DNA from: Nitzschia sp. pyKryTriq1
Taxonomy: Eukaryota; Bacillariophyta; Bacillariophyceae; Bacillariales; Bacillariaceae
Length of the DNA stretch: 64,000 bases
Direction of reading: 5' to 3'
NCBI GenBank assembly: GCA_956465555.1
Contig: OY101127.1
Span: 310,001 to 374,000, forward strand
The translations under genes and the position numbers were made by a program. The notes beneath the pieces are model-generated. The model did no database searches. It was not told the DNA's origin and was given only the letters and a program-made list of their open reading frames with translations. Below, piece by piece: positions 14,637 to 62,142 of the stretch. How positions within the stretch are numbered: position 1 is the first letter of the stretch; every line of letters begins with the position of its first letter.

Positions 14637-14669
14637 ATAAAAGACTATTTTATGAAACTGTGCAAGTTG

Positions 14670-37970: not shown

Positions 37971-39332
37971 TCACAATACACGACAAACAACCACGTGTTG
38001 TAACACACTCCACGCCACGAACGCAAACAAGTGGGTTCAGGCTGTTCGACTGGTTCCGATCAGACAAATGGTCTGACGAATCAAAACCACAATGAACAGG
38101 TAAAACAGGGTGAAATACTTTCCTGGCAGGAGCTGGTAAAGCTTTTGGGTCAATGATAAACTATTGTAACAGAATTGAAACAGATTTGGTTTTCTGATAA
38201 TTGTGAGCCTATTTTTATTGTCTATTTTGCTACTCTTGATTTTCCAGAAAAACTTCCAGTAGTAATTGCAATTGCATTTCCCAGTAGTAAATCCACAGGA
38301 TTCTACTGTTTTTCATCTTGCCACATCGTTGGCACTGACTCAGGATGTGCATCTCTTTATTCCTACTGGGAACTTGAAGGATGTAGGTCCTAGTACTTGA
38401 TCTAGTGTCTGATCTAGCCACATCAGTAAGTGGGAAGCTAGATCGTGTAATTTCGCTCGGGCACTCGTGGTTGGGATTGCTCGAAACCTTCGCGTGGCTC
38501 TGCGCGTGATTTCCTCGATCAGGACAGAAGGACATACTGATGACGTCATACGCCAGTCGTCATCAAACCTTGTCGAACATATACGGACGTACACAACATC
38601 GTACGTCATTACTATTATACAACATGTAACGGTTGAACAGTACGTACTTCTACTATTCTGTTCTAATATTCGCCTCTCGCAGGGCTTTCGCAAAGTGTTT
38701 GACACTCGGCATGTGCTGATGTATGTTTTGTACTCGTACTGTAAGTATGAAGATAGGATGAGACTGTTTCTACTTGTTTCAAAAAAGTAGAAACAGTCTC
38801 TTTTCGTCTGCATGCGTCAGGTGCGCTACGGTCATTATTAGGGGCTAGAAGGAGTGGTGACAAGAGTGGGAAGCATGCCATTCGCGCGCACGCTCGCCAG
38901 CTGAAACTCTATCATGCAATCCAATGCAGCCGGCCGACTAAACGTATCTTTTGAACTAAAGCAGACCTGAAGACATGCAACATATCAATAAAAACCTTAA
39001 GAGCTGGAGATTTGATATCCGGTAGTCCCCAAAAAGTGATTTTTTAGTCCTTATTTGCCTGTAGAGACTGTTTTAACTTCGTCAGTCTTACTTTGTACCC
39101 CGATTCTGCAATCTCTTCAAGCCTCAGCCAGGGACAACGCCTCAGCTCGTGATTTACGGTTGTACCAGGGCTACAGTAAAATTCTACCGGTACAGGGGGG
39201 CATTCCCTGGGGACCGTGGATTAGATCGTAAATCTCCCACTCTCATCACTTCCACAGCTTGTTGTTTCAAGAACACTGTCATATTTACCACCAGTATCGT
39301 ACCGGTAGGCCCGGAGTAACAAAGTCCCAACT
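37971..39332. other. Spacer right of copia element
   Basis: No convincing gene in 1.3 kb. Notable items are a perfect 16-bp hairpin at 38760-38800 and the left end of the A/B duplication at 39241. The 38.0-38.2 kb part may be relic copia sequence. TGACGTCA, a CRE-like palindrome, occurs at about 38541-38548. Confidence 0.4.
38760..38800. repeat. Perfect 16-bp inverted repeat (9-nt loop)
   Basis: GAGACTGTTTCTACTT at 38760-38775 pairs exactly with AAGTAGAAACAGTCTC at 38785-38800 across the loop GTTTCAAAA. A related partial string (AGAGACTGTTTTAACTT) occurs near 39063. It may be a small RNA hairpin, the relic of a short inverted-repeat transposon, or a transcription end signal. Nothing in the flanks decides. 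Confidence 0.85.
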
Positions 39333-41034
39333 ATGGTCTCGATCACAAGAGCATCATCCCTGCTGGTCATGATGATTGGTTTCGTCGTTGCAGTCTTATT
39401 GATCGTAGCCCAGCAGCTGTTCTTGATGCAAAATGCCACAACACCGGTATATATTAGCACTCAGGATGAGCCGACGAGCTTCCAGCAAGCGGTAATAGCA
39501 GTCAAGGAGGAACCGCTACCCAAGTGTGACGACCTCATGAAGAAGCACCACTTCTTGCGGGACGGGGCCTTTCTGACCCGTCAAGGAACTCACGTGGCTT
39601 GGAAATTACGCGTCGATGGCTCTCGCGAATTGACCTTACCCCTCCTGTGCAAACTCAAACGCTATACTGCCGATGAAGCGCGCCATTGTCTCGCCCACAA
39701 GCACATATTGACGATTGGTGACTCGCTCACCCGCTACCAATCAATTTCGCTCATGTACTTTCTGGAGCATGGAGAGTACCCGGCCCGGTTTGGCCGTCCC
39801 AAAAAGGGTCAGAACTGCACGCACTTCAACGAACAGGGTGAACCCATATGTTCCGCCGAGGTGGAAAACGTGTGTATGGAAGGCGAGTATGTGAAATGGA
39901 CATATTACCACCAACAACTCGGAGACATTTCGGGACCTTTTCGCGGACACCTCGAGTGTTCGTGTGCCCGATTCAAGGGAGACTCCACCACGGAATCACT
40001 TTTGTACGCCAATCACGATATCCGTGTGACACAACTCTCCGAGGTCGGCTGGGACATTAAGCCCAGGCCTATTTTAGGATTCAACTTCAAGGGTTGCAGC
40101 GCAGCAGGTTCCTGTAACATGACCATGGACGAGGTGAACGCTAAGTTGGAACGAGCAAAAAACCACGACTGGGACTGGAATATTTCCTTAAGCACGGGTT
40201 TTGATGTACTGAAAGAAAAACTAGGAACGGTCGACATTACTATTTACAATCGAGGGCTATGGAACCAAATGACCACAGCCATGGCCCAAGACTTGATGCC
40301 CAAGTTCCGTGATTTGGCCGCAGACAGATGTTTCTACAAGTCCACGACGCAATCGCAACGGACCCGAAAGAACCCCGGGTCCTTGCGCCCTATAGCCGAA
40401 AGCGATCGCGTCCTTGCACAAACAATGGCCGCGGGCTGTGGATATTTAGATGTTGCGCATTTGACTTCCTATTTTGAACACTTTGCATCCTCCTCGAAGA
40501 ACGAAGAGCTGGAAACAGTGTTTTGGGATGCAGTCCATTTTACGCCTTGGGTTTACGAAGAGCTCAACAATATGTTGCTGAATGTTCTGTGCAACACCTC
40601 TTAAGATCGATGCGGATGCACCCATATTAGCTTTGGTGGGCGGAGGCATTCCCTTGTCGTATTTGCATCGCATGACCCTACAGTTATACGAAGAGGTCAT
40701 GACCAAAGTCATAGAAGAAGAACCAGGAGATCCACAATTGTTTGATTTCATTAGTCATGTCGGTGAAATATGGGAAGCCATTGTCCAAGAAGAAGGTGGG
40801 GTGGCTGCAAAAGTGGAAGAAGCCGCACGACAAGCACGCTTTGCCAAATTCCGAGCCGAAGAAGAGGAACGACTGGCGCTACAAGGAGAAATTTCAGAGC
40901 AAGAACAGCTCCTTGTCTCGGGCACCAAATTCGAATCGGAACAGGAACGACATGAATATGCCGTTAGTATTGTGGCCAAGGGAGCACTAGAAGCCACGGT
41001 GTCCAGTAGCAAGGATAGATCCTCCGAAACACTT
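39241..41034 (+). repeat. Segmental duplication, copy 1 (gene A whole, gene B tail)
   Basis: Bases 39241-39501 match 49398-49655 with a few substitutions and one 3-bp indel. Bases 40615-41034 match 51357-51776 without any indel and with about nine substitutions (roughly 98% identity by eye). The intervening 39502-40614 (the rest of gene A) has no counterpart in copy 2. Sequence outside both ends is unrelated. Confidence 0.9.
39333..40604 (+). CDS. Type II membrane PC-esterase/TBL-like (SGNH fold) protein, gene A
   Basis: 423 residues. An N-terminal TM segment (about 9-31, LLVMMIGFVVAVLLIVAQQLFLM) is followed by a lumenal domain, the type II layout of Golgi enzymes. ILTIGDSLTRYQSISLMYF (Gly129-Asp130-Ser131) is the GDS nucleophile block of the PC-esterase/TBL family. 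The C-terminal DAVHFTPWVYEELNNML carries the DxxH catalytic pair (Asp399, His402). CNMTM and many Cys residues indicate disulfides and N-glycosylation. Plant TBL proteins O-acetylate cell-wall polysaccharides and CASD1-type relatives acetylate sialic acid, so glycan O-acetylation is likely, with substrate unknown. Its 5' end and promoter region are duplicated at 49.4 kb. The gene ends 10 bp before the duplicated tail of gene B begins. Confidence 0.75.
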   Translation: MVSITRASSLLVMMIGFVVAVLLIVAQQLFLMQNATTPVYISTQDEPTSFQQAVIAVKEEPLPKCDDLMKKHHFLRDGAFLTRQGTHVAWKLRVDGSRELTLPLLCKLKRYTADEARHCLAHKHILTIGDSLTRYQSISLMYFLEHGEYPARFGRPKKGQNCTHFNEQGEPICSAEVENVCMEGEYVKWTYYHQQLGDISGPFRGHLECSCARFKGDSTTESLLYANHDIRVTQLSEVGWDIKPRPILGFNFKGCSAAGSCNMTMDEVNAKLERAKNHDWDWNISLSTGFDVLKEKLGTVDITIYNRGLWNQMTTAMAQDLMPKFRDLAADRCFYKSTTQSQRTRKNPGSLRPIAESDRVLAQTMAAGCGYLDVAHLTSYFEHFASSSKNEELETVFWDAVHFTPWVYEELNNMLLNVLCNTS

Positions 41035-41043
41035 AAAAAATAA
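40615..41043 (+). pseudogene. Orphan 3' tail of gene B (RWD-like/coiled-coil part)
   Basis: An open frame (APILALVGGGIPLSYLHRMTL ... SSKDRSSETLKK) of about 140 residues is nearly identical to the last third of the gene at 49995-51848. It starts 10 bp after the stop of gene A and has lost the N-terminal 455 codons. Past 41034 the sequence diverges and the frame closes within three codons. There are no frame breaks inside and the divergence is small, so the loss is recent. The frame is also open 33 bases upstream from an ATG at 40582 inside gene A. I infer no product. Confidence 0.85.
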
Positions 41044-41319
41044 TTCTGCGCCATCGCTACGCGACATGGGAACTACCTCTTTTAGCGCTGACAGCTCTCC
41101 CGGATTCCGTTTCGGTGGTCTCGCACCTGTGGGGGTAGGGTGGGTACTCTATTACCCAATCTGGGATACTTCCTCCAGTATTCTGACTACGCCGGCCTTG
41201 AATTCCATAGCTACAGTATCCGATTTATGCTTGTATTAATTGTTTGTTCTTGCCGAATAACTAGCTGTCGGAGCAAAATACCCTGTAGCTCTATACAAAC
41301 CTACTGCTCTACTCGTACT

Positions 41320-43575
41320 TTAGAGTGGCTTTGTTAGGATTTGAATTGTCTCGTTGGCTCTTGAGCAGTTTTGAGTCCATGAATTCCAAAAGGACATACA
41401 CATCGAAGAATGCAGCTCCTCTTCTCGAAAGACTCCGGTACCGTTGTTGTTGAACATGGGCACTGGGTACAATTGTTTGGTTGGAATATAATGGAAACCC
41501 TCCTCGTTGTACACATATCGTAAGAACCGTTCGTAGTTACAAACCCGGGAAGGCGGTAACGGCTTTGCTCGGGAGAAAGCGATTAAAGGAGCCATGAAAT
41601 AGGGATACGCCCCATCCATATGGACGAAGGCGCCACGGTCATTCAGACCATTCCAATTCCTGCAGTGTGGCGTTACCATCGTCGGGCGCCAAGATTTTTT
41701 CGCTCCAAAATCGTCTTGCTCTTTAATTGGCGTTGGATCCAGTAGCCACTGGTGGAACTGTGTAATATCAAGGGGTTTTTCAAAACCTACATCGTCTCTC
41801 CAACGTGCTACGATGCCACGGCTGTAATCTTGTCCAGTTCCACGCATGTGTCGGTAGCATTCCTCCCATGAGATTGCTTGGCGTACATGGTTCTGGGCTC
41901 TTTTCTTGTTATAGGCAAATAGTTCTGGGGTCTTTAGGCTTTTGTCGTTTGCCGTCTGCGCTAGCCGTTGTTGATATTCAATGTAAACTTCAGGATCGAC
42001 TGCATGAGGCGAAGGTTCCCTTGTGACCACATTGAAGCCGCGGCTTGTTAAGTATTCGAAGGCCTCGTCGAATTTTGAGAAGGCAGGCTGATGCTGAGCT
42101 CTTTGCTCAGAAACGACGGCCTTTGTATACAGAGCCTTGTTATCAGTGACTACCAATGCAATATCTACACTCCCACCAATATCTTCGCGAATGGGGTTCA
42201 ACAGAGTTTCAACTTTGTTGTCGAGTTCAAGTCTTTCAAGCTGGCCATTGATACAGACAAATGACCTAATCGGAGAAGGCAGAGAATACTGTGCGTTCGA
42301 TTCAGTGGTCGTGCCTATCATTGACACCTCTGTAACTTGTGGCGCTTTGGAGGTCCCATCCAAGAGCTCTATGTTCTCATCTTGTCGAGGGCAATCTGGT
42401 CGATATGACTTCCACCAAACGCGACATAGCCGGCGACTTTTTTCTTCCGATCTGAACACCCCTTGGCCATTAATTCTGAACATAGGTATCGGATACAGAT
42501 CTCTTTCAGGGATGAATATGAATCCTTCTAGGTTGTATATATGTCGAAGGAACCGCTCATGGTTGCACACCCGATCTGATGGCAGCGGTAGCGCCCTAGT
42601 AAAGGCTGCAATCGAAGCCATGAAATAAGGATACGCCCCATCTGGATGTACAAAGGCACCTCGATCGTTTAGGCCTTGCCAATTTCGACAGTAGGGGGTC
42701 ACCATCGTAGGACGCCAATTTTGTCCTTTTCGTACTACTCCAAGATCAACCTGCTCGTCTACAACTGGAGGGTTGCGCAGCATCTCATGGAATTTTGCAA
42801 TTGGAAGGCGACGACGAAAGCCAACATCATCTCGCCAACGGGCAACAATTCCTTGGGAGTAATCTTTGCCAGTCGCAACCATTTGGCGGTAGCAGAGCTC
42901 CCCCGAGATCGCTTGGCGAACATGGTTTTGCCCTCTCCTTTTGTCATAGGCAAAAAATTCTGGATCTTGTAGATTAGCGTCAGACGCAGTTTGCGCGAGA
43001 CGCTGCAAGTACTCACGGTAAACTGTAGGATCTTCCGCATGACCTACAGGTTCTGTTGTGACTACATTGAATCCAAGGTTTGTCAAGTAGGCAACAGCAT
43101 CCTGATATTTTGTGAATGCCGGTTCGTGTTGGGCCCTCTCTGTGGAGATTTGAGCTTTGGTGTAAACTGCCTGATTTTCAGTGACTATCAATGCGATGTC
43201 AATAGTACCACCAATGTCCTCCCGAATGGGTTCCAAGAGCATTTGGACTTTGTTTTCGAGTTCAAGTCTTTCGAGTTGGCCATTGATACAAACAAATGAG
43301 GCCCTACGAGGAGACCTTGCTTCTGCTGGCAACTTTTCTTCTCCTGACGGCTTCACTTCATCCACTACAATGATTCGAGCCCGTGAAGAAGAAGAATGGA
43401 ACATTGTAACATCGAAAGGTTCATTCGATACTTCTAGTTCTGATCGAAAGGGAAAGGACAGCACGACAAGTACAACGAGGAGGCCCAATACTGGAAGAAA
43501 ATTCTTAAGGCAGCAGCGGGATGTTGTTGCCTGCTGGCGCTGGGGGGCTGCTCTCATCCCAGATACGCGCACCAT
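41320..43575 (-). CDS. Type II membrane protein with two tandem copies of a glycosyltransferase-like domain
   Basis: 751 residues. The cytosolic N-terminus and TM (about 24-43, NFLPVLGLLVVLVVLSFPF) give a Golgi-type topology. Two homologous domains of about 300 residues follow (about 94-400 and 435-745). Each starts FVCINGQLERLEL and contains DIGG.IDIAL, a GFNVVT.EP block, NHVRQAIS, YSQGIVARWRDDVGF, WRPTMVTP.CRNW.GLNDRGAFVH, and finally AYPYFMA followed by CN.ERFLR..YN.EGF. The 'NDRGAF' block and overall layout remind me of glycosyltransferase-like diatom families, but I do not recognise the domain with certainty. Internal duplication is older than the A/B duplication because the copies have diverged. 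Its position between genes for glycan-related proteins supports a glycan role. Confidence 0.7.
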   Translation of the reverse strand: MVRVSGMRAAPQRQQATTSRCCLKNFLPVLGLLVVLVVLSFPFRSELEVSNEPFDVTMFHSSSSRARIIVVDEVKPSGEEKLPAEARSPRRASFVCINGQLERLELENKVQMLLEPIREDIGGTIDIALIVTENQAVYTKAQISTERAQHEPAFTKYQDAVAYLTNLGFNVVTTEPVGHAEDPTVYREYLQRLAQTASDANLQDPEFFAYDKRRGQNHVRQAISGELCYRQMVATGKDYSQGIVARWRDDVGFRRRLPIAKFHEMLRNPPVVDEQVDLGVVRKGQNWRPTMVTPYCRNWQGLNDRGAFVHPDGAYPYFMASIAAFTRALPLPSDRVCNHERFLRHIYNLEGFIFIPERDLYPIPMFRINGQGVFRSEEKSRRLCRVWWKSYRPDCPRQDENIELLDGTSKAPQVTEVSMIGTTTESNAQYSLPSPIRSFVCINGQLERLELDNKVETLLNPIREDIGGSVDIALVVTDNKALYTKAVVSEQRAQHQPAFSKFDEAFEYLTSRGFNVVTREPSPHAVDPEVYIEYQQRLAQTANDKSLKTPELFAYNKKRAQNHVRQAISWEECYRHMRGTGQDYSRGIVARWRDDVGFEKPLDITQFHQWLLDPTPIKEQDDFGAKKSWRPTMVTPHCRNWNGLNDRGAFVHMDGAYPYFMAPLIAFSRAKPLPPSRVCNYERFLRYVYNEEGFHYIPTKQLYPVPMFNNNGTGVFREEELHSSMCMSFWNSWTQNCSRANETIQILTKPL

Positions 43576-44083
43576 GATGCTCTTCCACTTTGTTGTTGTT
43601 CTTCTTCAAAATAATCCCACTCTCGTAGTCCTAAATCATTCGAATAATGGACTGATGTATTTGAGGGAGAATGTACCGGTCTTGTTTCGTGTTCTTTTAG
43701 TCGTCCTTAGAACACCACCACATTCGATTGTGGCAATAAACGCCTGATGCATACCGGTACAGTTACAGTACTAGCGACGGAACAGTCTGCGTGCGTGCAG
43801 GGGGGGGTGTACGTACGGTAGAAGTACGCACTGGCGCGTGCAGTAGGAGTACGTTACGAAGTACCGTACACACGAGTACGGTGCGCGTGTACAGTGTAAT
43901 GATAGTACAGCGTTTTCCCAAGGCCCGAAAGATGAAAAGTCTTCGAGTCGCATTCTCTAAACTCGCACACCCGCCACCGACCCGCCATGCACACATCTTG
44001 ATGACTCTCCTCCTCTTGTATTGATAACTTCCATCGTCACAGTATTGTACTCACAGAAATCTAGACTGAAAATACATAGAAAG
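43576..44083. repeat. Divergent promoter spacer with GTAC block
   Basis: This 500-bp gap separates the heads of two divergent glycan-type genes and must hold both promoters. Bases 43675-43890 are dense in GTAC and TACCGGTA strings, plus GGGGGGGTGTACGTACGG. No other element is assignable. Confidence 0.5.
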
Positions 44084-46432
44084 ATGGCTAATATGTCGAC
44101 AACAACATCTCCGCGTGGGAGAACGAAGAAGGGTTTAGAGGGCTTTCGGTGGTTCTGCTTCCTATTTTGTGTAGGAGTGCTGGCCTTGGGTGGGCCGGTG
44201 TCAATGGATCCTTCTGGCACTTATTATTTTTCAGCTCATGGTAAGGATAATCAGATGGATAGTCCTTCGATGTCTGGTTTTGATGCAAAACATTCATTTG
44301 GTATCGGGGCAGACCCTGGTACAAGTACTGCAAAGCCAGACGGACTCGAAGTTGCCACACAAAATGACCGGCCTCTAGACAATGTGTCCGTCGTAGAAAA
44401 GGTGCTTGGAAAGGTACCAAAATCCACGTCGGGGGCATCTAAAGTGACGTCTTTGGAAGGAAACGAAACTCAGATCTCTCCAAAGGTCTGGAAAAACGAT
44501 TATGACGTCGTTCATGTTGTATACAGCCGTTTCATGCAGCACCAGCCGAACTTGCTTGCACTTGGCAAGGCAAGACTAGAGCTCTTCAAGACATTTTGTT
44601 TCCCGACAATGGCTCAACAGACAAACAAGCAGTTCCTTTGGATGATTCGGACTGACCCGGGGCTCCACCCGACTCTGAAGGAAGGGCTGATAGAAGCTCT
44701 AGACGGACTTCCAAACGTGGCTGTCGTAGGATCGACCGAAATCAGGAAAGGCTCTGTCGACCACGGTTTCCGCAGCCCAAGAGCCATCAACGACATTACT
44801 CCCGATACTCTATTCTATGGAGATATGGACTTGATCCGATCATTTCATGAATCAACTGCGGGCAGGACGGTGGTTGAGACGAATTTGGATGCCGATGACG
44901 GGCTCGGTTTGACATTTGTGGAACGAGCTCAAAAGCTTGCATTGAGCACGTTTGAGAGAATTCACGACGGGAGCGGCTGGATGAATCTGTGCGTCGGCCG
45001 TCACTTCGAATGGCAATTTTATGCGCCCTGGGATAAGAAGACTGAAAAGGGATCCTTGCGGGCTGGAAGCACACACATTTGTGTCACACCTGGCTTGAGT
45101 TGGGCCACGCAGGCTAATGCTCAGCCACGGTTTATCACAGGTCACCATTTGGTAAAAAAACAAACTCCATCTTGTGAGGAGAGCAATGAACCATTTCTCG
45201 GATGCTGGGCTGAGATTCCAGTTCCTGATCCGGATACCGACGTCATGGCAATTCGTGCTCGAACGCCCACTTCCACTGGAATGAACAGCGTCGTGCTCTC
45301 CGATGCCGGTTGGGACCAGACGGCGTTTAAATTGGACAAGCAAGCATGGCCGCTGTTGCAGCCATCGTTTGCGATAACGGAGACTTCAGTGAGAGTAGCT
45401 CACAAGCATTTGAGTGATCATTTGAAGGAACTAGTGGCCGAAAATCTGGCGGGACAATGTACCAAAGATCATTCATGCTCGGAAGCTATCAAGAAACAGC
45501 TGAAAAGTATATTTTTTACCAGTGGAAAATGGGAAAATAAGCACGACCTTGTTCATGTCGTGCATATGGAATTCCCTGCTGGCCTGGACGCTTCAAAACA
45601 ACACTTTCTTGCATTTGAGCCCATGGAGGCACAGACAACATATGAGTTTTTATTGATTCTGTATATCCAAGATACTATGGATGCGAATTTCAGGAATAAC
45701 CTTATGAAAATGCTCAAGAAGAGTCCTCTAGACATGATCGTGGTCGAGTCAAATGGAGGAGCCTCGACCATTGATTTTCGCAAGCCGGAAGCAATTGCTG
45801 GCTTTGCTAGCGAAAAGATCATTTACGGCAACGTGACATTACTTGAAGACTATCATCGGGCTGCTAAGAATCGAACTGTGTTAGAAACCTCGCTTTCTGC
45901 ATTCGAGGCGATACGGAAGACCTTTATGGAGGAGATTGAAACAGAAACGGCGTCTCAATTGTCAAAGCTCGAGGGAAACGCTTGGTACTACCAATGCGTT
46001 TCTGACTACATCGAATGGAGGTATTATGATCCTCGAGGCCAAGAGTCGTCGCATGGCTTTTTGAAGGTTGCAGACCAACCGAATGAGAAGTGTGTTGAGC
46101 GGCCGGGTTCAACAAGAATCAGTTTGCCTGGTGCTGAGATTCCGGATGATTATAAAAAGACGGAATCCGAAGAGTGTCAACCGGCTGCGGCTGCCCCGAG
46201 AAGTGGATGCTTTGTTCGCTCGGGACGAAGGGAAGCCGTCCGAGCACTCTTCCCTGCGTTTGTCGCGCCTTCCAAAATCAGTCTGCAAGTTTCTGATAAT
46301 GAGCTTGCAGTGTTGGAGGCGCAACAACAAGGTTTGCGAGCCGAACTTCACGGCACATACTCGATTGTTCGCGGTTATTTGAGCAAGCTATGTGAACTTG
46401 TGAAGCCAGATATGCAGAAAGGTCAGCAATAG
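44084..46432 (+). CDS. Putative rhamnosyltransferase-like type II membrane protein, two domains
   Basis: 782 residues from Met at 44084; an in-frame Met at 44021 adds 21 residues before the TM and is less likely. TM at about 20-38 (GFRWFCFLFCVGVLALGG). The first domain reads like the 'putative rhamnosyl transferase' family: VVHVVYSRFMQHQPNLLALGKARLELFKTF, FPTMAQQTNKQFLWMIRTDPGL, then the acidic ETNLDADDGLGLTFVE, a D-x-D/DD nucleotide-sugar-type motif, and WMNLCVGRHFEWQFY. A second copy starts at HDLVHVVHMEFPAGLDASKQHFLAFE but lacks the DADDGLG acids, so it is probably inactive and may be structural. It is expected to act in the Golgi or ER lumen on surface glycans. The donor sugar is inferred only from the family name. 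Confidence 0.75.
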   Translation: MANMSTTTSPRGRTKKGLEGFRWFCFLFCVGVLALGGPVSMDPSGTYYFSAHGKDNQMDSPSMSGFDAKHSFGIGADPGTSTAKPDGLEVATQNDRPLDNVSVVEKVLGKVPKSTSGASKVTSLEGNETQISPKVWKNDYDVVHVVYSRFMQHQPNLLALGKARLELFKTFCFPTMAQQTNKQFLWMIRTDPGLHPTLKEGLIEALDGLPNVAVVGSTEIRKGSVDHGFRSPRAINDITPDTLFYGDMDLIRSFHESTAGRTVVETNLDADDGLGLTFVERAQKLALSTFERIHDGSGWMNLCVGRHFEWQFYAPWDKKTEKGSLRAGSTHICVTPGLSWATQANAQPRFITGHHLVKKQTPSCEESNEPFLGCWAEIPVPDPDTDVMAIRARTPTSTGMNSVVLSDAGWDQTAFKLDKQAWPLLQPSFAITETSVRVAHKHLSDHLKELVAENLAGQCTKDHSCSEAIKKQLKSIFFTSGKWENKHDLVHVVHMEFPAGLDASKQHFLAFEPMEAQTTYEFLLILYIQDTMDANFRNNLMKMLKKSPLDMIVVESNGGASTIDFRKPEAIAGFASEKIIYGNVTLLEDYHRAAKNRTVLETSLSAFEAIRKTFMEEIETETASQLSKLEGNAWYYQCVSDYIEWRYYDPRGQESSHGFLKVADQPNEKCVERPGSTRISLPGAEIPDDYKKTESEECQPAAAAPRSGCFVRSGRREAVRALFPAFVAPSKISLQVSDNELAVLEAQQQGLRAELHGTYSIVRGYLSKLCELVKPDMQKGQQ

Positions 46433-46770
46433 ATAACTCTGCTATGTGAAAGTTCGCCCACAACTCGAGCGCATACTCCCTCTTTGTGGCCTCGTTGTGT
46501 TGCCTCTTATGCCCGATCTTATTCTTACAGTGCCCTGTAGAACGTTTTAAAAATAAGTCCTTTCTCCACCCCACCAGCCGCCTTTCCCTTGTCCTCATCG
46601 ATCAAGTCACTAGTTTTCCTCCCCACGCGCTCCGTCGAAATCGTGCGCACTTTTCCGAATCCACCTATACTTGCACATAATAAACTACGCATAAAAATCG
46701 ATGGAAGCTCTATTACTCGAAGAGGAGGTGGGTTTGACGATGAATTTTATGGCAACAACAACCACTATGA

Positions 46771-48147
46771 CTATAATGTCCATTCCAATCCAGCGGATAT
46801 CACTTCGTCGCCTCGGAAATCTGCCCGAACTCCAGTCTGCTGCTGATTTTCAAACACACAATTCTCAACACGAAGTTCAGGAATATTGAGAGCATAAATG
46901 CCATTGAAAAAGCCAGAGAATGTGCTGTCTTTGACTTCCAGCGCCGCAGCGTTGTTAGAATCAGGAGTAATTGATTTTCCGAATAGGATTCCGTTCCCTT
47001 GAGTTGAAGCTGACGTGAAAGTGGAATTTTTGACACTCAGCTTTACGCTGAGACCTGCAACATCCAATGCTGTGGCTGGAGTGGTAGTAGAAGTCCAGGA
47101 ATAACTGATTCCCTTCACTTTGACCTTGAGGAAGGCGGCGGCATTGCTGCCGGTAAAAGACACAGTCGAAGAAAAGATGGTCGGCACACCACTAAACGTG
47201 TTGCTTTCCAGTGTAATTCCCTGGTCGAGAAGGAGTTCTCTGCCATCGAAGTTCACGGCCAGGACCGCGATCTGAATGTTTTCGAACGCACAATCCACAA
47301 CATTGATCTGGGAAATCCCTTCGTCCAAAATGGCCACATTAAAGCCTGAGAAAGTGCTGTCCTTTACTTCGACCGCCGGCGCCGTCAGAGCGACGGTGTT
47401 GCCGGCGCTGACGATCATGCCGTTGGCAGATTCTAGGCTGTTGGAAGATAAGAAACTGGACCTTTCGACGCTGAGCTTGATATGCCCACTCGTCGAGATG
47501 ATGTAATGGTTCGATTGACTCTCAGAGTAAAACATTTGAGTCACGTTGATATAGATGGGCTGATCAATGATATTGCCGGCACTGAAGGAAAGACCGCATC
47601 CTACGTTGTCCAAGAAACGATTATTTTCAAAGGTGATAGAGTCACCCACTTCCTGCTGGGTGTTTGAGTTGAACTCGCCGCGAACAGCGTAGTTAAGGTT
47701 CTCGAACACACAGTTCTTTACTGTGGCGTTTGATGCTGATATCTGTATGGCTGTGGTCGCCGAACTTCCTTTGATGCTGTACCCAGCACAATCCAATTCT
47801 GCACCAGCGAAGAGCTCGAACATAACACAAGAAAGGTCTTCTGCTGCTACGTAGTTGGTAGACAACACGAGTCTTGTGGGTTCTTGAATCTTGATCGTCT
47901 CAGGACAAGTGGATTGGAGCTTTCGTCCGTTTTGCTCCGCATGATCTTTGAGGTCACCTTGTTGGAGGATATCATCCCCATGATCATCACGGTGATCATT
48001 TGCTTGAGGTCCAGTGCCAGCAGTAATAACACCAGCACCATCCACGGTGGCACTGTTGGAGCCTTGAGCGCCCGCCGCGTAAAGGCAGCAGGAGGTTACC
48101 AGCAAAAGAAGTGCAAAGAGCGGCGAGCAAGGACAAGAAAGCAACAT
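46771..48147 (-). CDS. Secreted right-handed beta-helix protein
   Basis: 458 residues from Met at 48147, chosen because MLLSCPCSPLFALLLLVTSCCLYAAGAQ is then a clean signal peptide; an in-frame Met at 48234 adds 29 residues. The body is a run of parallel beta-helix coils of about 22-25 residues (SNATVKNCVFENLNYAVRG, INVVDCAFENIQIAVL, LEVKDSTFSGFFNGIYA), as in pectate-lyase-like folds, with N-x-[CF]-x-[FN] ladders. No catalytic Asp cluster can be picked out. It may bind or cleave extracellular polysaccharide, which would match its glycan-related neighbours. The stop follows a coil directly, so the C-terminus looks short. Confidence 0.72.
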   Translation of the reverse strand: MLLSCPCSPLFALLLLVTSCCLYAAGAQGSNSATVDGAGVITAGTGPQANDHRDDHGDDILQQGDLKDHAEQNGRKLQSTCPETIKIQEPTRLVLSTNYVAAEDLSCVMFELFAGAELDCAGYSIKGSSATTAIQISASNATVKNCVFENLNYAVRGEFNSNTQQEVGDSITFENNRFLDNVGCGLSFSAGNIIDQPIYINVTQMFYSESQSNHYIISTSGHIKLSVERSSFLSSNSLESANGMIVSAGNTVALTAPAVEVKDSTFSGFNVAILDEGISQINVVDCAFENIQIAVLAVNFDGRELLLDQGITLESNTFSGVPTIFSSTVSFTGSNAAAFLKVKVKGISYSWTSTTTPATALDVAGLSVKLSVKNSTFTSASTQGNGILFGKSITPDSNNAAALEVKDSTFSGFFNGIYALNIPELRVENCVFENQQQTGVRADFRGDEVISAGLEWTL

Positions 48148-49397
48148 GGTAATGAACAATCCTTGGCAGCAACTTTTACCTTGTTTCAAGCAGAGATGAT
48201 GTGAGAGACAACAGAAAAATATGATCGATGTCATGCAAGGGTGCGTACCTGTATACTATCGGTATGGCAATACCGCAAACAATCGTCCAGAGTCCAGAGA
48301 TAATGCCATAAGGTAGTCTACATCATCATTGTCGGAAGACAGTACCGTATGTCGGAAACAATAAGCGTCCGGAAACAGTCATTTGGGCAGGTGCCCGAAA
48401 TGACCCGAGCGCTACCGGTACCGACGTGACTCACATGACCATAAATTCGCCCCAAAACGTCATGTAAGCTCCGCATCGCACCTACCGGTACCTGGTACAG
48501 TACTGCCATGCATGCTGCTGCGTTGCCACTACTTGTTTATTTTAAGGTGGAGTACGTGTAGTCTCCCCATTTTCTCCGGTCTAAATCCCCCATTCGCTCC
48601 CCTTTTCTCACGATCGTCGCGCCAAACAAAAGGACAACAACAACATGGCGACAATGGTGTTCTCTTGAGATAGAACGATCTACAGCTTGAAGAGACGGTT
48701 GTATTGCTTGAAATATGTATGCTATTGATTAGATTGTTGATGCGAAAGATAATTGTGCCATTGTCGATGCTTCTGTTGTTTCGGAATTTGGATTCACTTC
48801 GCTTCATAATGACCGTATGTATGTTTGTATGTATGATACACATGTAGGAATGGGTAGTGAGAGCAGACATTACCGCAGGTTGGCACTTGTCACGACATCC
48901 TCGCCGAATAACGCTCGGAATGTCGTACCCGGATCAACGCGCGTGCGCGTTGTAAAATATGTACTGCCCCTACGCTGTCCTGTGAATCGCCTCTATGGAT
49001 CCCGAAGAGGAACGAATTTACTATGGTGGTAAGAGAGGACTATAATAAAGGGTCGCCACAGCGACCCTTAATCTAATTGGCGTTAAATACTGAAAACTTG
49101 CCCCGCGCGCTCTTTTCGCCCAATCAAGAGCAACTCTACACGACATCTACGGTTGCGCTACAGCGCTACAGTGGCTAAAACTCCTCTTCTACGCCTACGG
49201 TTCCTACGGCGGTCTCCTACTCTACCCGTACGACTACGTACATACCTCCTACAGTACACGAGACTGCGGGCCTTGCCTCTACAGTGCTTCTGCCAGTACC
49301 TCCGCAGTACAACTGCTACGTACACATCCACTGCACCACACTGTTCCGTCGCTACTCTACTCTCTAGTAGGCGTTTGCAACAATTGTCCTTTGATTC
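48148..49397. other. Spacer between beta-helix gene and duplication copy 2
   Basis: No gene is recognised in 1.25 kb. GTAC strings occur at 48410-48500 and a hairpin at 49048-49069. CTAC-rich strings (CTACAGCGCTACAG, CTACGCCTACGG) fill 49145-49330. The last bases before 49398 show where homology to copy 1 stops. Confidence 0.4.
49048..49069. repeat. Perfect 9-bp inverted repeat (CACA loop)
   Basis: AAGGGTCGC and GCGACCCTT flank a four-base CACA loop, followed by an AT-rich string. A short strong hairpin; it could be a transcription end signal or part of a small mobile element. Function is not shown. Confidence 0.75.
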
Positions 49398-51776
49398 TCT
49401 CATCACTTCCACAGCTTGTTGTTTCAAGAACACTGTCATATTTACCACCAGTATCGTACCGGTAGGCCCGGAGTACTAAAGTCCCAACTATGGTCTCGAT
49501 CACGAGAGCATCATCCCTGCTGGTCATGATGATTGGTTTCGTCGTTGCAGTCTTGATCGTAGTCCAGCAGCTATTCTTGATGCAAAATGCCACGACACCG
49601 ATAGTATACAGCACTCAGGATGAGCCGACGAGCTTCCAGCAAGCGGTAATTGCAGGGCCACCCACCCACCCGGGCGATCTCTCAGGTCGCTTGGGTCAAC
49701 CGCGCCCCGGTAACACGGAGCCACGGTCACGCCCAATCAATACTAGCTAGCACGTTCTGACACACTACAACTGACACACCGTAGAGAAGGGCAGGCGTAA
49801 GGGATTCGAGAACTACTAGAAACTCCAAAAGGGATTCGGAGCCTCGCGTCGTATTGCCTGCAGCACCTGACGCAACCTGACATGCAACGCACAGGCTCAA
49901 AAGGTCAAAAGTCAAAAGTTGACGATTCTTCCAGCTTCAACAACTAAGAGCACAACAAAACTAAACCAAACCAAACCCAAAAAACGATCTCAAAATGGTA
50001 TTTTATTACCAAATTCGAGGTGGTCCCTGCCAGGGCGAATTGTCGCACGTCACCCTCCGATCACGAGATATTTGTTGCTATGTTGGTCGCGACAAGTACG
50101 AAAATGAACAATTGATCCAATACGGATGGCCAGGGGATGTTTGGTTTCACGTCGATGGATTGAGTAGTGCCCACGTCTATTTTCGTCTGAACTATAAAGA
50201 TGCTGCCGCGCATTCGCCCGATATTCCGACAAATGGTGCGATTCCGTTGGATTGTTTGCCAGAAGATTCGGTGTATGATATGATGCAAATTGTCAAACAC
50301 AATTCCATCCAGGGATGCAAAATGGCCTCGTGCAAAATTGTGTGGACTCCGCATTCGAATTTACTGAAAAAGACGATGGAAATGGAAGCCGGAACAGTGT
50401 CGTTTCAAACCACAAAATTGTGTCGATATGCGCGATGCCTGAAAGATCGAGCTCGAATCAAGGAGTTGGAAAAAACAAAGAGTCAAGACTTTACAAATGT
50501 CGATTTCTTTCAACAGCGACAAGACAATGAACGAGCTATGATTGACCGGCGCAAGCAACAAGCGAAACATGTAAAGACTCATCAAAATGCAGCGGGGGCA
50601 GGTGCCCCACTTTTTGATCCATTGGAGGCCGATAGACAGAATGTGGTCCGCAAATCGACACGACAAGGGGACGAACAATCAGGCCTCGATCAAGGCGTTG
50701 CCGCCCTTGAAGGATTGGCCTTATCGCGTACCACAACTGCATTTCATACCATTACTCAAGGAAGACCGTCCAACCATCGCAACAATAACAGTGGTGACGA
50801 CAACAATAATTATGCTGGTGATAACGACGACATTCCACTGTGGAAACAGGAACAAGCGAAAGCAGAAGAAGTGTATGCCAAACAAGACACTGCCTTGTTT
50901 TTGTTCGAGCGCGGATATCCTTGCGAGAGCATTGATATCCTGTTGCCCACACTTGTCGTCAACCAAAGCAACCACAGCTTTAATCGTACGAGGCCCAACC
51001 TGCAAGCGCTAGAACACTTGTGGAAGGGGTTGGTGTCTACTACGTCCGTATCATCATCCATGCCAGAAGAACCCAGCAATGACACTCCTCTTGACGACAT
51101 TCAACGGGTACGACAGGAAGAACGGGAAGTCCTGGCTGCCATTTTCGGGCAGGATATCGAGTGGTTTGTGGAAGTCAATGATAATGATAGTGAAGAGCAC
51201 TCACCACCACCACCAGAAGGAGGTTCCATTTTGGACGCTTCCATTCCGATTACTACCTACGTGCCACCTGACCGGTACTTTCAAGGATCGAACCCTCCTC
51301 CAGAACTGCGATTGGAAATCTATCTGCCCCCTTGGAATAGATATCCTTTTGGCCACGATGCACCCATATTAGCTCTGGTGGGCGGAGGCATTCCCTTGTC
51401 GTGTTTGCATCGCATGACCCTACAGTTATACGAAGAGGTCATGACCAAAGTCATAGAACAGGAACCGGGAGATCCACAATTGTTTGATTTCATTAGTCAT
51501 GTCGGTGAAATATGGGAAGCCATTGTCCAAGAAGAAGGTGTGGTGGCTGCAAAAGTGGAAGAAGCCGCACGACAAGCACGCTTTGCCAAATTCCGAGCCG
51601 AAGAAGAGGAACGACTGGCGCTACAAGGAGAAATTTCAGAGCAAGAACAGCTCCTTGCCTCGGGCACCAAATTCAAATCGGAACAGGAACGACATGAATA
51701 TGCCGTTAGTATTGTGGCCAGGGGAGCACTAGAAGCCACGGTGTCCAGTAGCAAGGATAGATCCTCCGAAACACTT
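49398..51776 (+). repeat. Segmental duplication, copy 2 (gene A head, gene B whole)
   Basis: This is the partner of 39241-41034. The left homologous block is 49398-49655 (start of gene A) and the right block is 51357-51776 (end of gene B). The middle, 49656-51356, holds the beginning and middle of gene B and has no counterpart in copy 1. The two loci are about 10.7 kb apart in the same orientation. Confidence 0.9.
49490..49750 (+). pseudogene. Truncated head of gene A
   Basis: The first 55 codons match gene A (same TM segment and the QDEPTSFQQAVIA stretch), with a 3-bp deletion in the TM. After GCAG at 49652-49655 the sequence switches to unrelated, Pro- and Arg-rich codons (GPPTHPGDLSGRLGQ) and stops at 49750. 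The SGNH esterase domain is absent. A short membrane peptide could be made, but function is unlikely. The upstream homology to 49398 means it probably kept gene A's promoter. Confidence 0.8.
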
Positions 51777-51848
51777 GCCAACAAGGGCAAAACCTACTAC
51801 AATACAGGTGTCAGTGACGTGTCTCTAATAGAGGATTTGTTCTCTTGA
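49995..51848 (+). CDS. NFACT-R (CCDC25-like) protein fused to an RWD-like domain, gene B
   Basis: 617 residues. Residues 1-195 match the CCDC25/NFACT-R family closely: [67 protein letters not shown] and [15 protein letters not shown], then a basic helix. A disordered middle follows. From about 370 comes an RWD-like module ([38 protein letters not shown], YP.....[12 protein letters not shown]), followed by an acidic coiled coil ([29 protein letters not shown]). CCDC25 alone is about 208 residues, so the extension is unusual. NFACT-R occurs in ribosome-quality-control factors and RWD in Gcn2/Gir2-type translation regulators, so a translation-stress role is an inference. Its last third is duplicated at 40.6 kb. 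Confidence 0.82.
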   Translation: [617 protein letters not shown]

Positions 51849-52131
51849 CGAACCAATCAGTTGTCCTTCCGACATGCGTCTTTCCTGCTTAGGGTACTGT
51901 AACTTATGGTGGGCGATATGCTTTACCAAAATAATGATTTCACTATGACGTAAAGGAACTGTATTACGACAAAATGTTTGTTGCTAGAAACTTATCATTG
52001 ATACAGTTACGAGGGTTCGACATTCCGTTCCATTGACAAATAAGGGAAAAGCGAAGGAGAAGGAAACTTATTGGGTCTAATGACTGACGGAGTCGCTACA
52101 AATACGGCTGATGGATCAATGAAATCCGAGC

Positions 52132-52662
52132 TCACGATGTGATTTCGTAATGAGTCGAGCGAGGAGTCGCTGAAACAACGACAGTCTTCTCAACTTCTCG
52201 ACCCTTGCATGAAGAAAGGAAGCCAAAAAACGTACGGCGTCGGCTTTTGCTTGTTGCAGTAGATCCATCGAGAGTGTCGGCTTCTGTGTTCCCTGAATCG
52301 TTGCTATCGTTGGCTGTCAGACCCTTCTGAGTTTCCTTTGCTTTGTTCATGGCAAGTTTGTCCAGAAGCTGCTGGCACGCATCAGCCGTATATTCGTCCT
52401 GGAGTATCATTTCTGCGTGCCGTGGTCCGCAGAGAATAATTCTGGATTCTTCTTCTTGGTTCAAGAGGATGGGGTCCAGTTCCACATTGGTAGTGTTGCC
52501 CGCTGAGCAAATAAGCTGTTCCGTGAAACCGAAGAATCGATCAATCGCATCAGGACGGTCGGTTGGTAGTTCAAGTTCAACAACTGGTGAATTTTCTTTT
52601 TTCACCACCTCAGCAAGCTCCGCTGCATCTTGTGCTTGAGTGCGTCCTTTGCCAAAAATCAT
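52132..52662 (-). CDS. Small acidic protein of unknown function
   Basis: 176 residues from Met at 52662 (MIFGKGRTQAQDAAELAEVV). The frame is open to 52914, but that extra part is His/Ser/Ile-rich and reads as a 5' UTR. The protein has an acidic middle with DRPDAIDRFFGFTEQLIC, ELDPILLNQEEESRIILCGPRH and DEYTADACQQLLDKL, and a basic patch SKSRRRTFFGFL near the end. No signal peptide or TM. I do not recognise a family. Protein-like composition and a long clean frame support it being a real gene. Confidence 0.5.
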   Translation of the reverse strand: MIFGKGRTQAQDAAELAEVVKKENSPVVELELPTDRPDAIDRFFGFTEQLICSAGNTTNVELDPILLNQEEESRIILCGPRHAEMILQDEYTADACQQLLDKLAMNKAKETQKGLTANDSNDSGNTEADTLDGSTATSKSRRRTFFGFLSSCKGREVEKTVVVSATPRSTHYEITS

Positions 52663-53239
52663 TGTTATGCGATTGTTCTTTGCTGACTGAGAAGATATCA
52701 AGAAATACAGTAGGTAGAAGATGGGATTTTCGATTACAAGTGTATGAATTGTGAACGCTATCGTTGTCCTCTGTTGGTGGGAGAAGATTGGTCGGTGTTG
52801 GCGAAACAAAGACGAGGAATGGCGATGATGATGACGGATGGATGGCGAAGTAGGTGCTCGAAGAATTGAATATTCGATATACAGTTTTGATAATAAATAT
52901 AAATGTTTATACATCTTCGTGTAAGTATGTCAATCAAACTCTAAAAGACGAGTTTCCTCATTAAACCGTTGTAAAGACGTTAAATTTGAATCTCCCGCGC
53001 ACGCGAAAAACTTGTTTTAGGACTAACGGAGTACCGTCTGTCATCATCCTTCCTGCCTTTGTCCTGTCCATATGATACAAGTGACAAGTGGCATGCGTGG
53101 GCCACATTTCGCGCTACATTTTGCGGAACAGCGTTTAGGGTTCTGGCCAGAATTCGTGTGTACTCGTACTGTATTTTTCGCTGCTTTACGATATACTACA
53201 GTATTACTACAGCAGTAGACTATTACTCTTTTAAAAAAC
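52663..53239. other. Divergent spacer upstream of DUS2
   Basis: This holds the probable 5' UTR of the small acidic gene (52663-52914, AT-rich) and the promoter of DUS2. The dispersed motif TTTTTCGCTGCTTTACGATA lies at 53174-53193, only about 47 bases before the DUS2 ATG. Confidence 0.45.
53174..53193 (+). repeat. Dispersed motif copy 2, upstream of DUS2
   Basis: TTTTTCGCTGCTTTACGATA occurs here exactly as at 23807-23826. It is preceded by CGTACTGTA rather than by the TTAGACARTGCAC block. Being close to a start codon it could act as a promoter or initiator element. Confidence 0.55.
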
Positions 53240-54550
53240 ATGCTAGACGTTCAAGAACAAGCCAATCGTCTGTATAGAGGCAAGGCATTGGCCCCGATGG
53301 TCCGTGCCTCCACCACTCCCCTACGAACACTCGCATTGGAGTACGGCGCCGACTTGGTCTACACGGAAGAATTTGTCGATCGGAGTTTGAGTCAAACGAT
53401 CCGACAGGAAAATCCGACGCTAGGAACCATTGATTATGTCAAGGATACTTCACTATTGTCCAAGAAATCCCAAAAGAAACTCTTGAGCGAGCAACGACCT
53501 TGCTTGATTTTCCGGATGGATCCTTCAGTCGAGAGAGGCAAAATTATATGTCAATTGGGCACAGGGGAACCCGAATTGGCCTTGGAGGCAGCAAAGCACG
53601 TCTATCAGGATTTTTGTGCGATCGATATTAATATGGGTTGTCCCAAGAAGTTTAGCGTCAGTGGGGGTATGGGCAGCGCTCTCTTGAATGATCCGAAACG
53701 GGCTGCCCGCATAATCGAGACGCTTCGAACGCACATCCCGCGCCCCATCTCCTGTAAAATTCGCCTGTTGAAAACCGCGGAGGATACGATAGACTTTGTA
53801 CAGCAAATGATCCAAGCGGGAGCCAACGCCGTGGCAATTCATGCCCGAAGAGTCGGGCACGATGCGACTGTTCCTGCCGACTGGGAAACACTTGAGGTGG
53901 TCATGGCTAGCCTGCGAGCCCAGTATCCTTCCTTTCCGTTTTTGCTGAATGGAGACTTTTATGATCGGACCGAAATAGAAAAAATGCTCCAAAAGACTCA
54001 AGCGAGTGGGGTTCTTCTGGGACGACCTGCGCTATACAACACTTCTATCTTTCGACCTCTCGACATGGAGCTGGAAGATAAAGGCAAAGTCATCCAACGC
54101 TATTTACAACATGCCGCACGATACGATCAGCATTTCAAAAACCCAAAGTACACCGTTTGTGAGATGATGAACAATCGTAGGGCTCCGATCCCGCGAGTCC
54201 CGTACCTTCCTCAACTGTACGAGGGAGGCCAAACCATTGCGAAGACGTGTAATTGCAAGAATTTAGAGCAAATCTTTGATGTTTGGGAGCTTCCATGGAA
54301 GGGAACGGGCAAACCAGCACTGGCTGGGGACAAAACCGCGATGACTGGTGTTCCAAGCTTGGGTGACACAGCGCTGGCACCGGGGGAGCATTGTTACACA
54401 GATTCCTACTTTCTGAAGAAACGACCGAACTCTCCATCGGATGCTACGGAAGCGAATGTGGATGCAAAGCGTGTCAAGACAAACCACCAAACAGACCAAG
54501 AAGCGACAACAACCGAAAGCGCCACCAAGACGAAAAGAAAAAATGATTAA
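53240..54550 (+). CDS. tRNA-dihydrouridine synthase 2-like (DUS2)
   Basis: 436 residues. The FMN-binding TIM-barrel features of Dus enzymes are present: KALAPMVRASTTPLRTLALEYGADLVYTEEFVD at the N-terminus, DINMGCPKKFSVSGGMGSALL with the catalytic Cys, RPISCKIRLLKTAEDTIDF, AVAIHARRVGHDA, FLLNGDFYDRTEIEKML and GVLLGRPALYNTSIF. Wording is closest to eukaryotic DUS2, which reduces U20 of cytosolic tRNA using NADPH. The C-terminal part after about 330 has no clear dsRNA-binding domain, unlike animal DUS2, and ends in a basic nuclear-type tail (DAKRVKTN ... KTKRKND). The stop is about 105 bp from that of the converging gene. Confidence 0.92.
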   Translation: MLDVQEQANRLYRGKALAPMVRASTTPLRTLALEYGADLVYTEEFVDRSLSQTIRQENPTLGTIDYVKDTSLLSKKSQKKLLSEQRPCLIFRMDPSVERGKIICQLGTGEPELALEAAKHVYQDFCAIDINMGCPKKFSVSGGMGSALLNDPKRAARIIETLRTHIPRPISCKIRLLKTAEDTIDFVQQMIQAGANAVAIHARRVGHDATVPADWETLEVVMASLRAQYPSFPFLLNGDFYDRTEIEKMLQKTQASGVLLGRPALYNTSIFRPLDMELEDKGKVIQRYLQHAARYDQHFKNPKYTVCEMMNNRRAPIPRVPYLPQLYEGGQTIAKTCNCKNLEQIFDVWELPWKGTGKPALAGDKTAMTGVPSLGDTALAPGEHCYTDSYFLKKRPNSPSDATEANVDAKRVKTNHQTDQEATTTESATKTKRKND

Positions 54551-54655
54551 TGCTCGCAGGAACTATTGTCATTGCTTCACTACAAGCCGATACAAAGTAG
54601 TAGACCGCCGCAGCTGCAGCAGGACCAGTTTTACTTCAGGGGCTCGCTGGCCTCT

Positions 54656-57289: not shown

Positions 57290-58293
57290 GATCGACCGAC
57301 CGCTTATCCTTCTAATGATAAATTGTGAAGAATGCATCTGATATCTGACGGTATGAGGTTTGCCATGGTCAGTGGCGGTGATGGTGGTGGTGGGTAGATG
57401 GTTCGGCGGCAGGTTGGAGACTTGTTTGCTTTTCGTTTCTGCCGAGGTGCGCTACTGACATTACAGAATTTTCCAGTTTTTAAAACTCTCCAATATCTAT
57501 TAGCTACATTAGACAATGCACCTTTTCGCGCTGCTTTACGATGGCTAATACTCTACTAATAGATACTCGTCAGTCTTTCAACGACTCCTCCTCCTCCCTG
57601 CCCATACCGTACGGTACCGGTACCGTAGGTACAGTATTCAGTATTGCTGTTACCGGTCAGGTGTTGAAAATCTCCGTAGTCTGTACGCTGTCAGCTGACG
57701 CTTTGACTAGTGGGACCACTTCCTCAGCCCCGCGTCGAGTATAGTGTTGATGCTACCAGCTAAAGTTCGTCTGCTCTTCTTCCGAGGCACGAACCTACCT
57801 CAAGTAAAGTAAACTTCCCTCTCAAACTTGAGATTAAGACACTTGTTATTCTACATTTGATAACTTTGCTTGTTGGTATCGGATCTTTGCTATCGCCGAT
57901 CGATCTTGGAACTGACAGATTCAACTATGAACAATAGCTCTTCCACAATGAATCTTGTCCTCCTTTTGCAGACAACGACTAAATTGACTAAAGCTGTACG
58001 TTCCAGCCCACATTCGTACCGTTACGCCTACAGTATGTATTATTTTATCAGGGGTCCAGCATCCCTACTGTATCATAGCGCGAAGAGATCCATCGCATGC
58101 CAAATACCGACGCCGCGAAGTGACCAAAACTGCGAGAGAGGGAAACAATCGGTATCTTGGGCGTAAACTGCGGCACTTGCGAGATTTTGGAGATAGGAGC
58201 ACCATATCAAGAAGCAAGAACTTCAGCTTATTGCTGCCCACTCTACCGGTGTATCCTACGAGTACTCCTAATTATAATAATAATGCCAGCAGA
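57290..58293. other. Divergent spacer with motif copy 3 and GTAC strings
   Basis: One kilobase between the multi-TM gene and the double-C2 gene, which diverge. It holds GTAC/TACCGGTA strings at 57600-57640 and motif copy 3 at 57506-57542. The plus frame is open from 58120 but reads as 5' UTR until the Met at 58294. Nothing else could be assigned. Confidence 0.4.
57506..57542 (+). repeat. Dispersed motif copy 3
   Basis: ACATTAGACAATGCACC followed by TTTTCGCGCTGCTTTACGAT. It matches copy 1 at 23791-23826 over nearly its whole length, with a 2-base difference in the CGCGCT part. It lies about 215 bases upstream of the minus-strand multi-TM gene. Confidence 0.5.
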
Positions 58294-59817: not shown

Positions 59818-60105
59818 AACGGCGGTTCTTGATATGACGTATGGAGTCGAATAAGGGAATCATAATCGTCGTCGCGTGGTGGTTATTTAATCAGTTCTTT
59901 ATGTGCTCCCGTATTCCGTTGTAGTCATACGCTTCTGGTGCATATTCAGTCTTAGCAGGAGGCCCACTCCTATCAATCGTTCTCAGACGATGACGCATTT
60001 TTGTTTTTAATGTCTCAAAGCAAGCGCAAGTACCTGGTAGCACTTGCCGGAAACACAGCTTGGCCAATTTCCACGACCAGAATCCGTATGTATGATATGC
60101 ATCCA

Positions 60106-61110: not shown

Positions 61111-61446
61111 TTTCGATTAGGACAACAGCAAGGGGTGTCCTTCTAGTAATGAACAAGTACTACGGAATATGATGTCAAATGCTGCCAATCTGGATTGTGC
61201 CTATTGATGGGTACCTTGTCGATGATAAAGGTGAGCTACATAAATTATGGGGATGTCGCTATGATTCCATGATTTGTGTGCGAGCATTGGGAACCGCCAC
61301 GTGTAACGGCTGAATGCTCTGATTGGCGGGTTTCGATGGGTCCGCTTGTTTGACGCTGAGGTAATGGTAGCCGGCGAAGCGGGAGCGAGCTTTGGTTTCG
61401 GATAAATAAGAAGTATCGCTTTCGACGTGCACGACAAAATGAATGT

Positions 61447-61606
61447 GCGCGAAACCCCCCCATTCTCGCCCTTTTTTGGCCCGCATTCGCGCACTTGCGC
61501 AAATGCCCTCCCATTCTCTCACTTCATTCTCGCACTTTTTAATATTCATTCGCGCCCCTCTTGAGACGGCGCGAAACCCCCCCCCATCCTCGCCAACCTT
61601 TCGCGC
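61447..61606. promoter_or_regulatory. Cluster of three E2F-like sites
   Basis: GCGCGAAA lies at 61447-61454 and 61569-61576, and TTTCGCGC, the reverse complement, at 61599-61606. This 8-mer is the consensus of E2F/DP binding sites (TTTSSCGC). The first two sites sit in a near-direct repeat, GCGCGAAAC with a C-run followed by ATYCTCGCC. Location is 340-500 bp upstream of the minus-strand SET gene. Binding is inferred from the sequence alone. Confidence 0.4.
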
Positions 61607-61942
61607 CCGGTCGCGAATCCTCCTAGTAAATTGTGACTACTAGTAAAATTTGAGTATATCTACTCTTCATCCTTCAGTATCCGCAGCAACAGTAATAGCC
61701 GGTTGTACTGGCTGTGCGAGTTGTGTACGTCTACTGGTAGTGCTATCGTCTGTGTCAGACATTGTAGTGAGCGAAAGAGGAAGTAGAAGAAGAAGAGTAC
61801 AGACAAGCGAATTCGTTTATTGTATTGTTGTACTGTATTATTATTGTCGTCATTGCCGCACAGCCTTTTGATTTTTTGATCTTTTCAATTTGGAATTCTC
61901 CGAAGCTGCCGCCAAGGTTGGAGTCGTGGAAGTCAACTCCGG

Positions 61943-62040: not shown

Positions 62041-62142
62041 GCATCTTCCAACAACAACAATAGTAATAAGACGGTCAAGCGATGGAGTGTTCCAGAAGCA
62101 GCTGATCGTAGGTGAGTTGCATAATTCCTTCAGGGCAAATGC

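Follow-up and report, generated by a model that had tools for sequence, protein, structure and literature searches.

A probable gene relocation by duplication and loss in a diatom, with a relic of the other gene at each of two loci

Why does each of two loci on one diatom contig hold an intact gene together with a fragment of the gene that is intact at the other locus? The question arises in a 64,000-nucleotide stretch of Nitzschia sp. pyKryTriq1, which is referred to here as the window and corresponds to positions 310001-374000 of contig C13. In a self-comparison of the window by blastn, the two best-scoring self-matches are a tail block, which lies within a gene that we call B, and a head block, which covers the beginning of a gene that we call A. 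The two blocks occur in collinear order and direct orientation at both loci (Table 1), and the offset from locus 1 to locus 2 is 10157 bp for the head block and 10742 bp for the tail block. An earlier, sequence-only reading of this DNA had reported that the two loci share these blocks. The self-comparison bears this out, including the nine tail mismatches without an indel, and shifts the edges of the blocks by one or two bases. Within the head block, three bases are deleted in frame at locus 2, and changes are clustered at 39450-39455. No third copy of 39240-41034 was found in the 40.65-Mb, 20-contig assembly (three matches, with all three candidates scored). Outside the blocks, a comparison of the left and right flanks of locus 1 with those of locus 2 at word size 7 gave nothing above chance (best E 0.19). 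The idea that homology is hidden beyond the dispersed repeat R2, to the left of locus 2, was rejected on the same chance-level comparison.

Table 1. Features at and between the two loci, in window coordinates
Feature	Position	Strand	Description
Head block pair	39240-39501 vs 49397-49655		263 columns, 9 mismatches, 3 gap openings, 94.7% identity, E 1e-112
Tail block pair	40615-41034 vs 51357-51776		420 bp, 9 mismatches, 0 gaps, 97.9% identity
Head block, locus 1	39240..39501	+	93 bp 5' of gene A and its first 56 codons, intact copy
Gene A, intact	39333..40604	+	Open frame, 423 aa
Spacer	40605..40614	+	10 bp between the stop codon of A and the B fragment; maximum remnant of A's own 3' flank
B relic (tail block, locus 1)	40615..41034	+	Open frame of 140 codons, without the final 24 of B (stop included)
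Gene between the loci	41320-43575	-	751 aa, no Pfam match
Gene between the loci	44084-46432		Rhamno_transf, the only glycan-linked Pfam domain of the three genes
Gene between the loci	46771-48234		Beta-helix (Pfam)
R2, dispersed repeat	49083..49384	+	Ends 12 bp before the head block of locus 2
A relic (head block, locus 2)	49397..49655	+	93 bp upstream and A's first 55 codons
R3, dispersed repeat	49656..49852	+	5' end cut where the A relic ends
Gene B, intact	49995..51848	+	617 aa
Tail block inside intact B	51357..51776	+	
Final 24 codons of B, including the stop	51777..51848	+	Absent from locus 1

Gene A is intact at locus 1 only, and no further close copy was found in the genome. Its 423-aa frame there stands against a 259-bp relic at locus 2. 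The sequence-only reading had likewise found A complete only at locus 1, and the distance of 10 bp past A's stop codon, at which it had placed a deletion, is exact. The B relic that follows the spacer breaks off at 41034, with a stop two codons further, and occupies the expected position of the 3' UTR of A.

What kind of protein does A encode? In Pfam, A has no match above cut-off. NXPE4_C reaches 13.5 bits in A against a cut-off of 27, and PC-Esterase reaches 12.5 bits, against a cut-off of 27, in one A paralogue only. The paralogues of A, located at C13:376720-377751 and C12:1437259-1438506, are 33-56% identical to A, depending on the piece compared. A contains IGDSLTRYQ (with GDSLTRY near residue 129) and, near its C-terminus, DAVHFTPW; the corresponding motifs are IGDSVSRYL and DNVHFLPW in the C13 paralogue and IGDSLTRYQ and DSVHYQPW in the C12 paralogue. 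The GDS near the N-terminus and the D-x-x-H near the C-terminus of A and its paralogues constitute what we take to be the SGNH motif. Together with the low scores for NXPE4_C and PC-Esterase given above, these residues suggest that A is an SGNH/GDSL-like protein of the sugar-modifying SGNH type, and an N-terminal membrane anchor is predicted by eye. Among solved structures, two chains were matched at E 0.12 (2-nitroimidazole nitrohydrolase), which we take as chance, and a search of genome_contigs with gene A returned no relative. Immediately to the right of the window, at C13:374001-384000, the C13 paralogue of A lies with a second NXPE-like protein and one resembling exostosin/RXYLT1. All three have scores below the Pfam cut-offs, and they appear as another cluster of possibly secretory or glycan-type genes.

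Gene B scores 83.6 bits for NFACT-R_1 against a curated cut-off of 29.8 and 33.3 bits for an additional RWD domain against a cut-off of 22.8 (Pfam), and it matches PDB chains of CCDC25 with an E value of 1e-29. The solved CCDC25 chains comprise 193-204 residues. B differs from them in its 617 residues and its added RWD domain, and it thus carries the CCDC25-like domain within a fusion. One partial relative of B lies on C8, and a search of viral_contigs with B returned no relative; none of the region's five proteins had an NCBIfam match. The sequence-only reading had assigned to locus 2 the head of A and the entire B. Both are present, and in addition the B frame runs unbroken to 51848, that is, 72 bp beyond the tail block.

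The genes between the two loci had been described as three glycan genes; in Pfam, one of them has a glycan-linked domain, one has a beta-helix and one has no match. The gene at 41320-43575 consists of two tandem halves with approximately 70% DNA identity (41590-42264 vs 42616-43299). Elsewhere in the window, inverted pairs with 68-84% identity (8665-9002/32270-32603, 7802-7862/33666-33726 and 8080-8136/33413-33469) delineate two related gene regions in opposite orientation, 7802-9002 and 32270-33726. The frame at 6392-7873 has a weak CHASE score, and the frame at 32247-33353 contains a histidine-kinase ATPase and a response regulator.

How could A and B have come to lie apart, each beside a piece of the other? 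The history that we consider reasonably probable is a duplication followed by loss, in which A relocated, B remained and a relic of the other gene was left at each locus. A and B would originally have been neighbours at locus 2, an adjacency that we infer from the blocks. A segment reaching from 93 bp upstream of A to within the last codons of B would then have been copied to locus 1, approximately 10 kb upstream and in direct orientation; the shared blocks are observed directly, and the direction of copying is reconstructed from them. The copy would have brought along the whole of A, and its version of B would have been missing at least the C-terminus. Absent from locus 1 are the intergenic stretch between A and B and the first 454 codons of B (1362 coding bases), which may have been skipped in copying or deleted later. 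A later deletion and a copying jump leave identical traces in locus 1. The A-B intergenic sequence was found nowhere, and thus microhomology at the breakpoint is readable on one side only.

Because the B copy at locus 1 is 24 codons short, it was probably never complete; on the same ground, only A would have been mobile, and locus 2 looks like the parental locus. The whole frame of A lies within the copied segment, which would have allowed A to relocate. Since the segment would have brought just 93 bp of A's upstream sequence, the DNA upstream of A would now be mostly new. A repeat copy at approximately 38677-39090, which is 97-99% like copies on C5 and C1, stops 149 bp to the left of the locus-1 block. 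Against the proposed history, the former adjacency of A and B is never seen, and no B-like gene was found in the 10-kb stretches read around the two A paralogues. The missing intergenic sequence likewise speaks against it.

Once A was redundant, the parental A at locus 2 would have been destroyed from codon 56 onwards. What defines the edge of this loss? The repeats at locus 2 were found by a genome search with 38540-52130, in which the best 39 of 138 candidates were considered, and the repeat counts are therefore lower bounds. R2 has at least 37 other matches, of which 24 stop at 49384 or one base from it, with 12 bp of query still to come. For R3 there are at least 32 further matches, in some cases more than one from a single copy; 22 of these 32 extend into the final three bases of the query. 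With the query extended to 50100, the match ends at 49850-49852 in 11 of 12 matched stretches, and the 3' end of R3 is thus sharp. The 5' end was aligned over 14 rows picked for length, which represent 13 distinct copies (L045 repeats L037). Ten of the 13 copies go on in the 5' direction beyond the edge of the window copy; they share there, in slightly varying form, a stretch of about CCAATAGAAATTTTAA that is missing from the window copy. The remaining three start 15-16 bp further in. The window copy of R3 has the A relic in place of the common 5' stretch; therefore, the break of A is also the break of R3. The sequence-only reading had described the loss of A at locus 2 and missed that a dispersed repeat is cut at its 5' end at this very edge.

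Such an edge could have formed in two ways. R3 may have been inserted in a 5'-truncated form with loss of target sequence, or a deletion may have run into an R3 copy already located between A and B, so that the rest of A would have been lost along with the 5' part of R3. The window copy of R3 has two private substitutions in 197 bp and thus need not predate the duplication. Eight of the 13 distinct other copies have 0-2 private substitutions, with L037 counting too low because it occupies two rows. So few private changes are frequent in this repeat, and they therefore date the window copy only loosely. By eye, neither the locus-1 copy nor R3 is bordered by a clean target-site duplication, which also tells against the proposed history.

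Do the head and tail blocks record one event or two? The blast count gives 9 differences in 259 positions for the head and 9 in 420 for the tail, a roughly compatible divergence (Fisher P = 0.33). If the cluster at 39450-39455 is counted as six changes, the head has 14 differences in 259 positions against 9 in 420 for the tail (P = 0.03), and the blocks may then differ in age. Given that the result depends on how this cluster is counted, a single age for both blocks is probable rather than assured. The tail differences comprise six nonsynonymous and three synonymous changes, with 74% nonsynonymous changes expected in the absence of constraint. This fits a B relic that has been neutral since its origin, as far as nine changes can tell it from one under weak constraint.

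The same blocks can be read in other ways. A complete A-B pair may have been duplicated and then reduced by two reciprocal deletions, with a third event removing the 3' end of B at locus 1. This course would account for the order, the orientation and the roughly similar divergence of both blocks, and the 10 bp of non-B sequence retained after A's stop codon at locus 1 accord with it. It requires an extra event, however, for the loss of B's last 24 codons and the 3' flank, and we consider it unlikely. The sequence-only reading had proposed duplication with reciprocal deletions. Its complementary survival of A and B stands, but its symmetrical, complete-pair version is not supported in that form: with the B relic 24 codons short, B could have survived at locus 1 only before some further loss, although an original and a later absence of these codons would look alike. 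It is also conceivable that locus 1 is parental and locus 2 is the daughter. A is indeed intact at locus 1, and the left flanks are mutually unrelated and hence mark neither locus as the original. B would then have had to acquire its present last 24 codons, a new C-terminus with a stop, at the insertion site, yet its frame shows no interruption at the block edge or beyond; we hold this direction to be quite improbable.

Were A and B ever adjacent at all? If they were not, two independent copying events would have put 260 bp of A ahead of B and 420 bp of B after A. Partial gene copies are present in this genome, as the C2-domain gene at 58294-59817 illustrates, and the head differs more than the tail when differences are counted column by column (P = 0.03). 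The same orientation and the right order, with the head before and the tail behind, would nevertheless be needed twice independently, and in the control stretch at 10800-21800 no gene has a recent copy (best gene match 69%), so that such events are not everywhere. Two separate copies appear very improbable. An assembly artefact, either a chimera or a false duplication of two haplotypes, is scarcely credible. A false haplotype duplication should repeat a flank, and the left and right flanks all differ; none of the three intervening genes has a second copy among the matches listed (best 39 of 138 candidates), and the whole arrangement lies inside one 1.38-Mb contig. For the making of the locus-1 copy, a spliced or read-through cDNA was considered as the origin of the A-B junction. 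The skipped stretch ends in ...GGCCAC, which by eye offers no AG acceptor and makes a spliced intermediate unlikely. Transposon capture was likewise rejected, given that none of five inverted pairs of at least 14 nt in 38500-41500 brackets the locus-1 copy.

How ordinary is such a partial copy in this genome? Two window stretches, 52132-62100 and 10800-21800, served as background. In the first of these, the C2-domain gene has at least two copies on C9 with 96% identity, one of them shorter, and a partial copy with 89% identity at C13:580341-581003 (best 39 of 172 candidates). The C9 copies lie side by side at 139430-142783, as another recent partial duplication. In the second stretch, the best gene match is the distant one given above, and closer matches are short repeats (best 34 of 35 candidates). 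The presence of C2-gene copies in one stretch and their lack of a counterpart in the other indicate that partial gene copies occur here, but not everywhere. The PF00504 antenna family has 72 matches, in keeping with a diatom; a phmmer search with one FCP-like protein returned no chain at E 1e-60. Two genes of this family at C1:4283352-4323732 and two at C3:3144038-3187064 agree exactly in score and frame length. With the spacing of approximately 40 kb on both contigs, this suggests that a segment of about 40 kb was probably duplicated recently.

What would the relocation mean for the two genes and beyond them? The frame of the A relic opens with A's old ATG at 49490 and runs for 86 codons, its stop (49748-49750) lying within R3. 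Should B be transcribed from A's former start, its mRNA would bear this 86-codon frame upstream, and at locus 1 the 3' UTR of A would be the B relic. We regard it as quite improbable that the relics are active in this way, with the 93 bp and 55 codons of A starting the B transcript, the B relic serving as the 3' UTR of A, and two unrelated genes thereby coupled, possibly via small RNAs from the 98%-identical stretch. The intermediate stages of gene-order drift are seldom so plain, and the relocation appears young, both relics here being still 95-98% alike to their intact counterparts. Furthermore, the point at which the parental A breaks off can be fixed with single-base precision and falls at a dispersed repeat. 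Both the copy-then-lose route and the role of repeats in its losing step are thus made directly testable in sister strains, although the understanding of the relocation process itself is unchanged by the case of A and B.

The proposed relocation can be compared with known systems. Sequence footprints of rearrangements have been treated (PMC5569537), and duplicates in yeast and worm include complete, partial and chimeric ones (PMC2728529). For diatoms, segmental duplications are mentioned for the Phaeodactylum genome (PMC8147415). Among the titles listed for diatoms and gene relocation or loss, none concerned local nuclear relocation in a diatom, and one deals with the chloroplast-to-nucleus transfer of the ferredoxin gene in Thalassiosira. 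Mitochondrial duplication-random loss resembles the present case in that one copy of each gene is lost and pseudogene relics remain as traces. It is tandem and mitochondrial, whereas the duplication described here is nuclear and dispersed over approximately 10 kb, with a B copy that was probably incomplete from the start (PMC5745709). In Mimulus pTAC14, the working copy in one lineage likewise sits apart from a copy that is no longer expressed. That case rests on a comparison between species and has hybrid lethality as a consequence, in contrast to the single genome considered here (PMC5896889).

Two relocated animal genes offer further parallels. In Drosophila kanapiae, the copy of Cenp-C1d brought along all or part of a neighbouring gene, and the original has disappeared (PMC12724597, preprint). 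The Cenp-C1d history is inferred from synteny in the montium group across 23 species, whereas relics are present at both loci here, within one genome, and the move spans just approximately 10 kb (PMC12724597). Human DPY19L2 is like A in that the descendant copy is active and the ancestral copy silenced, the functional gene having moved within low copy repeats (PMC1475853). Its relocation, established by comparison with mouse and corroborated by dog and rat, differs in that it involved an interchromosomal segmental duplication and in that the ancestral copy persists as a pseudogene rather than a 260-bp relic (PMC1475853). Alongside these systems, the probable relocation of A is a clear, young and well-preserved case of the known copy-then-lose process.
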